In this document: positions 43,888-47,305 of the stretch, one piece after another
Position numbering within the stretch: position 1 is the stretch's first letter
How the letters are laid out: each line of letters begins with the position of its first letter
Translations under genes and position numbers: made by a program
Assembly (NCBI GenBank): GCA_946626755.1
Contig: CAMOUW010000001.1
Coordinates: 1-64,000, forward strand
Direction of reading: 5' to 3'
Length of the DNA stretch: 64,000 bases
Origin: an uncultured Clostridia bacterium
Lineage (GTDB): Bacteria > Bacillota > Clostridia > Lachnospirales > Lachnospiraceae
The notes under the pieces: generated by a model
What the model saw: only the letters and a program-made list of their open reading frames with translations
What the model was told of the DNA's origin: nothing
Databases searched by the model: none

Positions 43888-44175
43888 ATGACACTTTCAC
43901 CCCTTGGAGATAAGGTCGTTTTAAAGGCGATCAAAGAAGAGGAAACAACCAAGTCAGGCATTATCTTACCCGGAGAGGCTAAGGACAAGCCCTCACAGGG
44001 CGAGGTTATCGCTGTAGGCCCCGGCGGCATCATAGACGGAAACGAAGTTAAGATGCAGGTTAAGAAGGGCGACAAGGTTATATATGCAAAATATGCAGGT
44101 ACAGAGGTTTCACTAGATGATGAAGATTTCATTATCGTAGGACAGTCTGATATTCTTGCGATCGTTAAGAAATAA
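43888..44175 (+). CDS. groES: Co-chaperonin GroES
   Basis: SPLGDKVVLKAIKEEETTKSGIILPGEAKDKPSQGEV. Confidence 0.97.
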   Translation: MTLSPLGDKVVLKAIKEEETTKSGIILPGEAKDKPSQGEVIAVGPGGIIDGNEVKMQVKKGDKVIYAKYAGTEVSLDDEDFIIVGQSDILAIVKK

Positions 44176-44230: not shown

Positions 44231-45850
<1,620 letters not shown>

Positions 45851-45857
45851 TAAACAA

Positions 45858-46051
45858 GAGTCACTATTCACAGCATAAATGAAAAAAACCCGAATCACCA
45901 TGCTCGCATGAGTGATTCGGGTTTTTTTTTATTTATGGCTGTGGAACAGAGACCGCCCAAACAACCTCAGGCTTTTAGCCTCGAAGAGGCGACAGACGCG
46001 TAAGCGGCTGGCCTGAGGTATGGTTTGGAGCGGTCCTGTGAATAGTGACTC
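45858..46051 (+). repeat. Structured element downstream of groEL: 16-bp outer stem enclosing an extended terminator hairpin and a 21-bp branched arm
   Basis: gagtcactattcacag(45858-45873)/ctgtgaatagtgactc(46036-46051); cataaatgaaaaaaacccgaatcac(45874-45898)/gtgattcgggtttttttttatttatg(45912-45937); gaccgcccaaac-a-acctcaggc(45951-45972)/gcctgaggt-atg-gtttgg-a-gcggtc(46011-46035). Confidence 0.88.
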
Positions 46052-46060
46052 GAAGAAGAA

Positions 46061-46104
46061 TCAAGAACCGCCGCCAAACAACCCCAAGCATTAAGCCTCG
46101 AAGA
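46061..46104 (+). repeat. Degenerate tandem copy of the 5' half of the branched arm
   Basis: caaacaaccccaagcattaagcctcgaaga matches caaacaacctcaggcttttagcctcgaaga at 26/30 positions. Confidence 0.75.
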
Positions 46105-46123
46105 AAAAATTTTAAAAAAAATA

Positions 46124-46152
46124 TTGAAATTATCTACCAATAGTGTTATAGT
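46124..46152 (+). promoter_or_regulatory. Sigma-A-type promoter
   Basis: TTGAAA N17 TATAGT. Confidence 0.6.
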
Positions 46153-46258
46153 ATTCCCGATCTGTTAGTTATATCAGACAGCATCGGTATAATATAGTAA
46201 TTCAGGAATGAAATCACTGGAAGCAGAAGAAAGCGAAAAAAGAAAAAGGAGAAGATTC

Positions 46259-47305
46259 ATGAAAAAGAGAGCTTTTATACCGGTAGGCGTAGGCGCTTGT
46301 ATTGCGCTTGGGTTATTTGCTAATGTAACAGGAACAGGAAAAAATACTGCAGTCGCATCTGTAAAAGATGTTGTAAGTTCAGATAACAATTTTATATATT
46401 CCATGGTAAAAGGCATCCTTCCTGAAAAAGGAAGTGCTGCTGAAAAAGCAGATATAATCCCTTCATTTTCAGGGGCACTGGTAGCAGTGACGGAAGAGCC
46501 GCAGCTTCCTGCAGTACAAAAAGATGTACAGGGATATATGAAGAATGAGCATTCAGAAGAAAACAAAAACATAACAGAGCAGATGCCGGCAGCGGTTCTG
46601 CAGAGTTTTGAAGCAGATAATGCCCGGGATGAAGTTCACGATACACAGGATCAGCCGGCAGTACAGTTTCCGGAAGAAAAGCAGGTTCAGAGCACTACAG
46701 GTATAGAAGATTTCTCGAAAGAAGAAGAGAATGCTGAGAAAGAAAAACATGAAATCTCTTCAGTCAGGGAAGAAAAAAAAGCAGAAGAAGCAGAAGAAGC
46801 AGAAGAAGCAGAAAAAGCAGAAGAAGTAACAGTTCCTTCTTCTGTCACACAGGAAGAAGATAAACATGAGCATGTACTTAAGCCCGTATATAAAACACTC
46901 CATCATGATGCTGTGACACATACAGAGACAGAGTACGTTGAAACAGGCTTTGAGTCATCAGGAGGAGGTAGTACTTCCTATGGGGACATAACATTGTCAT
47001 TTGGAAGACATTACTCCGGAAGATACGATGAAGACGGTTCTCCTGTTTATGATAAATATGAAAAATACTTTTATATAAATGGTGAAAAAGCAAGCGAAGA
47101 AGAATACAATGAGGCGTCTGCCAGACTTCATGCAGAGGCTGAAGCTAACGGAGAGATCGATAAAATAGAAGAAAATGCTATTTCCGGAATCTGGCCGAGA
47201 GTGGAAGAGATTGAAAAAGAAATAGTGGATCAGGAAGCTTATGACGAAGAGGTTTTAGACCACTACGAGTGTGAGCATTGTGATGAAATAGCAGATAATA
47301 TATAA
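46259..47305 (+). CDS. Secreted/anchored Glu-rich protein with HxH...VYKTLHHDAVTHTETE motif and C-terminal CxxC
   Basis: N-terminal signal/TM (MKKRAFIPVGVGACIALGLFA), AEE repeats, C-term YECEHC; RBS aaaggag. Confidence 0.7.
   Translation: MKKRAFIPVGVGACIALGLFANVTGTGKNTAVASVKDVVSSDNNFIYSMVKGILPEKGSAAEKADIIPSFSGALVAVTEEPQLPAVQKDVQGYMKNEHSEENKNITEQMPAAVLQSFEADNARDEVHDTQDQPAVQFPEEKQVQSTTGIEDFSKEEENAEKEKHEISSVREEKKAEEAEEAEEAEKAEEVTVPSSVTQEEDKHEHVLKPVYKTLHHDAVTHTETEYVETGFESSGGGSTSYGDITLSFGRHYSGRYDEDGSPVYDKYEKYFYINGEKASEEEYNEASARLHAEAEANGEIDKIEENAISGIWPRVEEIEKEIVDQEAYDEEVLDHYECEHCDEIADNI
46781..46826 (+). repeat. In-frame microsatellite (gcagaagaa)n encoding AEE repeats
   Basis: Repeated gcagaagaa units. 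Confidence 0.85.

Follow-up and report, generated by a model that had tools for sequence, protein, structure and literature searches.

A probable copy of a structured Lachnospiraceae inverted-repeat element behind groEL

The BOX elements of Streptococcus pneumoniae are modular boxA-boxB-boxC repeats, and pneumococcus also carries SPRITE, a rho-independent terminator-like repeat in which an 18-bp duplex is followed by a U-rich stretch (PMC3049150). Further comparable systems are the prokaryotic miniature inverted-repeat transposable elements (MITEs), such as RUP, the Correia elements and QMITE2 of Coxiella (PMC10969869).

In the window analyzed here, a stretch of 64,000 nucleotides from an uncultured Clostridia bacterium of the Lachnospiraceae, the segment behind groEL is best read as a structured, BOX-like miniature inverted-repeat element. 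It is highly probable that it is an old, immobile copy of a non-autonomous transposable repeat of approximately 190 nt from Lachnospiraceae, co-opted as the 3' end of groESL. The family has terminal inverted repeats (TIRs), 8-bp target-site duplications (TSDs) in relatives, a high and dispersed copy number, a mostly intergenic location and one covarying multibranch architecture. It is not covered by any Rfam model, is spread across genera of a family that is dominant in gut and rumen, and its fold is conserved beyond what decaying transposon relics usually show. Moreover, it makes testable whether, and for what, the complex folds of BOX and similar bacterial small repeats are selected, and it suggests a route by which a mobile repeat could capture an essential chaperonin operon at its 3' end.

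The element behind groEL and its predicted fold

The host gene groEL (44231..45850, forward strand; PF00118, E = 1.7e-83) lies downstream of groES (43891-44175; PF00166, E = 7.6e-32), and the 5' edge of the element is found 8 nt past the groEL stop codon (45848-45850). A 16-bp inverted repeat without mismatches (45858-45873 / 46036-46051) delimits the element, whose RNA fold (45858-46051) reaches -114.1 kcal/mol, as compared to -52.2 +/- 4.4 kcal/mol for 200 dinucleotide shuffles, of which 0/200 were as good (z = -14.0). All its parts are given here on the forward strand. The left half of the outer stem (45858..45873), a perfect 16-bp match to 46036-46051, includes a degenerate TIR, GTCACTATTCACAG, with one change relative to the family consensus GTTACTATTCACRG that is compensated on the opposite side, while the right half (46036..46051), recognized by fold and inverted-repeat match, is the right TIR, CTGTGAATAGTGAC. 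Hairpin 1 (45874..45937) has a long stem with an A-tract and a T-tract, the conserved tip CATG-CTCG-CATG and nine T after the stem, and is intrinsic-terminator-like in the fold. Hairpin 2 (45939..45949; CUGU-GGA-ACAG), present in the MFE structure, is a reduced version of the family consensus hairpin CUGYGAAGCAG. The arm (45951..46035), defined by fold, covariance model and covariation, leads from a basal stem, GACCGCCCAAAC/GTTTGGAGCGGTC, to a three-way junction with two short hairpins, and scores 100.8 bits with the covariance model R1, which was built partly from this same arm. The junction core (45965..46018), supported by two-sided changes at 23 of 24 pairs in 40 relatives, is composed of P1 (45965-45972/46011-46018), a single-stranded TTTTA (45973-45977), P2 (45978-45990), which is the cap GCCTC-GAA-GAGGC, and P3 (45993-46010), with an A.G mismatch.

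In the original prediction, a perfect 16-bp inverted repeat, beginning 8 nt downstream of groEL at these same coordinates, enclosed a terminator-like hairpin and an arm capped by GCCTC-GAA-GAGGC; the repeat was confirmed, and the fold agrees with the inner arrangement. It had also proposed two mutually exclusive folds, and both do exist: when CACAGC (45869-45874) was forced onto GCTGTG (45938-45943), the energy was -113.7 kcal/mol vs -114.1 kcal/mol. However, as the two are only 0.4 kcal/mol and approximately five pairs apart, at one junction only, they amount to branch migration and not to a switch. When prefixes of increasing length were folded, hairpin 1 appeared first in its extended form. 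Finally, a TSD had been stated to be absent, and indeed the flanks AAACAAGA and TCGAAGAA match at 2/8 bases, so that we infer the transposition of the window copy from the family.

By sequence and fold, hairpin 1 has the make-up of an intrinsic terminator, that is, a GC-containing hairpin followed by a T run. A simple terminator scan of the forward strand did not list it, probably because the rules of the scan do not accommodate such a long stem and T run.

Spread, ends and sizes of the repeat family

Model R1, which describes the arm, had matches in 18 of 299 family genomes (E <= 0.1), with 14-16 matches in each of three genomes among the best 16 candidates scored per genome; the weakest R1 matches may be due to chance. 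Reading the surroundings of these matches revealed that the family ends, GTTACTATTCACRG and its complement, are conserved, the elements terminating in GTTACTATTCACRG...CYGTGAATAGTAAC. A pattern of TIR, hairpin tip and TIR matched at least 120 stretches in genome contigs. Among the matches listed are Pseudobutyrivibrio, Blautia, Catenibacillus scindens, Claveliimonas bilis, Lachnoclostridium and many Lachnospiraceae assemblies, and some occur in records labelled only Clostridia, Clostridiaceae, Eubacterium or "bacterium". A strict pattern was found in 27 of 397 Lachnospiraceae species (reversed control, one), although a few sequences in this list look like chance matches in coding DNA. Outside the Lachnospiraceae, the best 12 candidates per genome included one weak, partial match, behind gyrA in a genome from another family of the order (G075). 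This locus (L204:1501-1562), in which CTGCGAAGCAGG, a two-hairpin arm and the end GTCAGTGAAATAGTAA can be read, is possibly a distant or decayed relative of the repeat. Viral contigs yielded zero matches to the family patterns, and a phage origin was rejected on that basis.

Only 3 of 102 elements lie inside an open reading frame predicted by a simple ORF caller, and those frames are short (100-124 codons). With the same caller, the flanking genes are oriented ++ in 44 cases, -- in 28, -+ in 19 and +- in 8; the median distance from the element to the facing gene is 20 nt where that gene presents its 3' end and 86 nt where it presents its 5' end. None of 4227 Rfam families scored above its gathering threshold in ten loci, and the best Rfam matches to the window are far under the gathering scores. 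In the open full texts searched, we found no description of the terminal sequence or of Lachnospiraceae MITEs, a scope within which the family may already have been described elsewhere.

When the flanks of 78 elements were compared at an 8-bp offset, identity was 69%, vs 32% with shuffled partners, and 29 of the 78 carry a perfect 8-bp TSD, while offsets 5-7 and 9-12 gave 0-1 perfect cases. Allowing at most one mismatch, we counted 291 TIRs in Bacterium D16-51, 78 in G345, 65 in Catenibacillus scindens and 51 in G303, with 0-8 in the reversed-pattern controls. In G002, a genome of the window's genus, such matches are unevenly split between the two orientations, with 12 forward and 3 reverse (1/3 in the control), perhaps reflecting a tandem array or half elements.

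Element length is tightly kept, within the range that the pattern permitted, at approximately 170-210 nt and mostly 176-198 nt. The same ends also delimit elements of 47-690 bp, most of them with 6-8 of 8 TSD bases; as elements of such varied sizes mostly have a TSD, the ends may suffice for mobility. The shorter ones could result from later deletions. At the upper end of this range are non-coding palindromic elements of 557-690 bp (L169:309-996, L170, L172:265-938 and L253:218-774), with the same terminal repeats, a TSD in most and interiors unrelated to the 190-nt form. In a copy from G189 (L254:196-492), the hairpin-1 tip module, of approximately 34 nt, occurs four times in tandem. Overall, the family shares with MITEs the TIRs, the fixed 8-bp TSD and a short, non-coding and dispersed character. 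An AT-rich body, which is a typical but not a defining MITE feature, is absent, the arms having 38-72% GC and most of them more than 50%.

Conservation of the fold and the search for a mobilizer

Family members share an outer stem, a long hairpin tipped GCUUGC, a small hairpin of the form CUG-GAA-CAG and an arm that branches at a three-way junction, and in the printed representatives the branch order is alike, with few exceptions. The tip GCUUGC is near-invariant in the relatives, partly because the search pattern required it. When 40 arms were aligned to the model, pairing held in 93.8% of cells, and two-sided changes were seen in 23 of 24 pairs; double-change cells number 236, as compared to 64 +/- 6 after shuffling and 22-42 with slid partners, and the covariation score is 0.643 vs 0.179. 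The alignment, being fitted to the model, leans to structure, and related sequences are non-independent, but the margins are large. Conservation of unpaired sites in the arm is also high: the A before P2 is kept in 100%, the G after P2 in 95%, the A.G mismatch of P3 in 95/90% and the loop A in 97.5%, whereas paired columns average 70%. MAFFT failed to align the variable stems, and RNAalifold on the whole alignment of 84 elements consequently retrieved little structure other than the outer stem and hairpin 1.

These data bear on whether the paired state is selected or merely produced. It is rather unlikely, in our assessment, that the element is a mobile repeat whose stems are kept paired by template switching in hairpins (quasipalindrome correction), so that covariation would represent mutation bias. 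The stems of hairpin 1 are long and near-perfect and their sequence is not conserved, which is the expected outcome of such correction, and their wobble asymmetry (21 G.T vs 12 A.C pairs, p = 0.16) is not significant. Nevertheless, the arm's unpaired sites, namely the A that precedes P2, the G that follows it, the A.G mismatch and the GAA-type loops, are kept across genera while the stems vary, and element length and branch order are constant. In the arm, G.T pairs outnumber A.C pairs (29 vs 10, p = 0.003), and this excess suggests, without proving it, selection on one arm strand. We tentatively entertain the broader idea that the whole 190-nt single-stranded form of this mobile element could be a multibranch RNA, or single-stranded DNA, that is functional and under selection throughout Lachnospiraceae, its three-way-junction core recognized by a protein or required for spread, and repeatedly co-opted by hosts as gene 3' ends.

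In the stretches examined, no 1-4 kb element combining the family ends with a transposase was found, and none of the terminal-repeat pairs 0.5-5 kb apart in G345, G189, G348 and parts of G350 contains a transposase. It is improbable that the repeat derives, as a MITE, from the IS4-family IS in L168 of Catenibacillus scindens. This 1748-bp element has the same 14-bp TIR on both sides, with ends GTTACTATTCACAGTC as in the repeat, a 461-aa IS4-family transposase (NF033592, 3e-49) and a TSD of 7/8. However, homologues of this IS elsewhere end in CAATGTCATTWAG, which in L168 begins just inside the GTTAC repeats; the copy in L183 is flanked by a direct duplication of 9 bp, and copies of the IS4-family IS in other genomes sit within other palindromic repeats. 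Therefore, L168 is most likely an IS inserted into a repeat, and it was rejected as the parent.

The IS4-family IS with CAATGTCATTWAG ends is itself recurrent in the center of palindromic repeats, GGGACGTAACAC... and GGGGACGGTTC... (L182, L186, L189, L191, L192, L193 (Claveliimonas bilis); L185; L183), with inverted, not direct, flanking sequence in most copies; this IS may target palindromes.

The groEL site and comparison with known repeats

The window's own genome (G000), in an assembly that is 83% complete, has one copy of the element and a truncated remnant of a second (46064..46105, forward strand), which corresponds to the 5' part of the arm with 84% identity to 45952-45987. Within the same genus, G008 carries the element behind groEL, in the same place as in the window (L012), and approximately 23 nt of the remnant are identical to this copy, which favors, but does not settle, common descent of the arm. 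G002 carries the element behind ftsX (L004). The window, G008 and G002 copies have in common the outer stem, a hairpin 1 with the A/T tracts of an intrinsic terminator and the arm; their stem sequences differ while pairing is largely intact, the stems of the G008 and G002 copies having been rebuilt through compensatory changes. In the copies printed from beyond the genus, hairpin 1 is mostly without A/T tracts.

By groEL, G002 and G001 are the nearest to G000 and G008, respectively (84.7% and 86.3% nucleotide identity). Both are without the element behind groEL and have ordinary terminator-like hairpins in that slot, a comparison that in G002 is cut by the contig end approximately 150 nt downstream. 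The element is likewise absent behind groEL in G006, G007, G009 and G010, of the same genus. This pattern implies either repeated loss of an old insertion at the groEL site or two separate insertions there. G008 and G001 (L197) appear to have the same gene downstream of groEL, judging from similar N-terminal sequences, and at that slot G008 has the repeat and G001 a plain terminator-like hairpin.

It is very improbable that the segment is a functional non-coding RNA, either an sRNA or a 3'-UTR-derived regulator, made from groEL mRNA and maintained for heat-shock regulation. Its strong fold, covariation, conserved unpaired bases and the G.T excess of the arm, a hint of one-strand selection, agree with an RNA function, but elsewhere the element lies behind unrelated genes such as ftsX, the close relatives G001 and G002 have no copy behind groEL, its orientation relative to neighbors is only mildly biased (44 ++ vs 28 --), the TSDs show transposition, and the G.T excess in hairpin 1 is not significant. 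Among the options of the original prediction, a heat-shock 3'-UTR-derived RNA is left without support by a family that is neither tied to groEL nor strongly biased in orientation, and a heat-shock sRNA was rejected for this lack of groEL linkage and the absence in close relatives; the option of a small non-autonomous repeat is well supported by the dispersed copies, the conserved TIRs and the 8-bp TSDs in relatives. Copies and covariation elsewhere, set beforehand as the test, are both clearly present. Taken as a whole, the prediction was right in part, having missed the remnant at 46064-46105 and the conserved family TIRs at the element ends. An ordinary groESL intrinsic terminator next to chance palindromes is scarcely credible: hairpin 1 with its nine T resembles a good terminator and sister genomes hold terminator-like hairpins in the same slot, yet the outer stem, the arm, the at least 120 same-ended relatives and the TSDs are left unexplained, and the family evidence refutes a terminator as the full account, which would apply to nothing more than what hairpin 1 does.

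Under the preferred reading of an old copy of a mobile repeat, the element would have been moved by a transposase that recognizes the terminal repeats in trans, and the fold would be either under selection when one of the strands is single-stranded or kept near-perfect via hairpin-templated repair. The window copy would have been inserted just behind the groEL stop codon and would then have lost its TSD while keeping its fold. Hairpin 1, with its stem and nine T, may now terminate groESL transcription, and the remainder of the element may cap and stabilize the 3' end of read-through RNA. Such a role is plausible given the A/T-tract hairpin, also found in the genus copies, the terminator-like hairpins of the sister genomes, and a site outside the element (46124..46152, forward strand; consensus scan, 10/12 with TG) that is promoter-like by consensus only and precedes the downstream ORF 46208-47305. 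This ORF encodes 365 aa with a signal-peptide-like start, an E/K-rich middle and no Pfam match.

When compared to known systems, hairpin 1 and the nine T after its stem are those of an intrinsic (rho-independent) terminator, but embedded in a 190-nt mobile repeat. Similarly to SPRITE, the repeat could serve as a transcript end; here, however, the terminator-like hairpin is one of several modules, and its A/T tracts occur in the three copies of the window's genus. The likeness to BOX concerns general organization, no homology being claimed: both are small, interspersed and modular, with a conserved RNA-like fold, and their tip modules can multiply, the four-fold hairpin-1 repeat of L254 resembling boxB multiplication. 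In contrast to BOX, the Lachnospiraceae repeat belongs to another host family, has a clear 8-bp TSD, and differs in ends, length and branch architecture. With RUP, Correia elements and QMITE2, it shares TIRs, a TSD, the lack of coding capacity and tightly folding transcripts. It differs from these MITEs in having no same-ended parental IS in the stretches examined and GC-rich, not AT-rich, arms, and, rather than resembling a decaying IS remnant, it maintains a covarying multibranch fold with near-invariant unpaired bases across genera.
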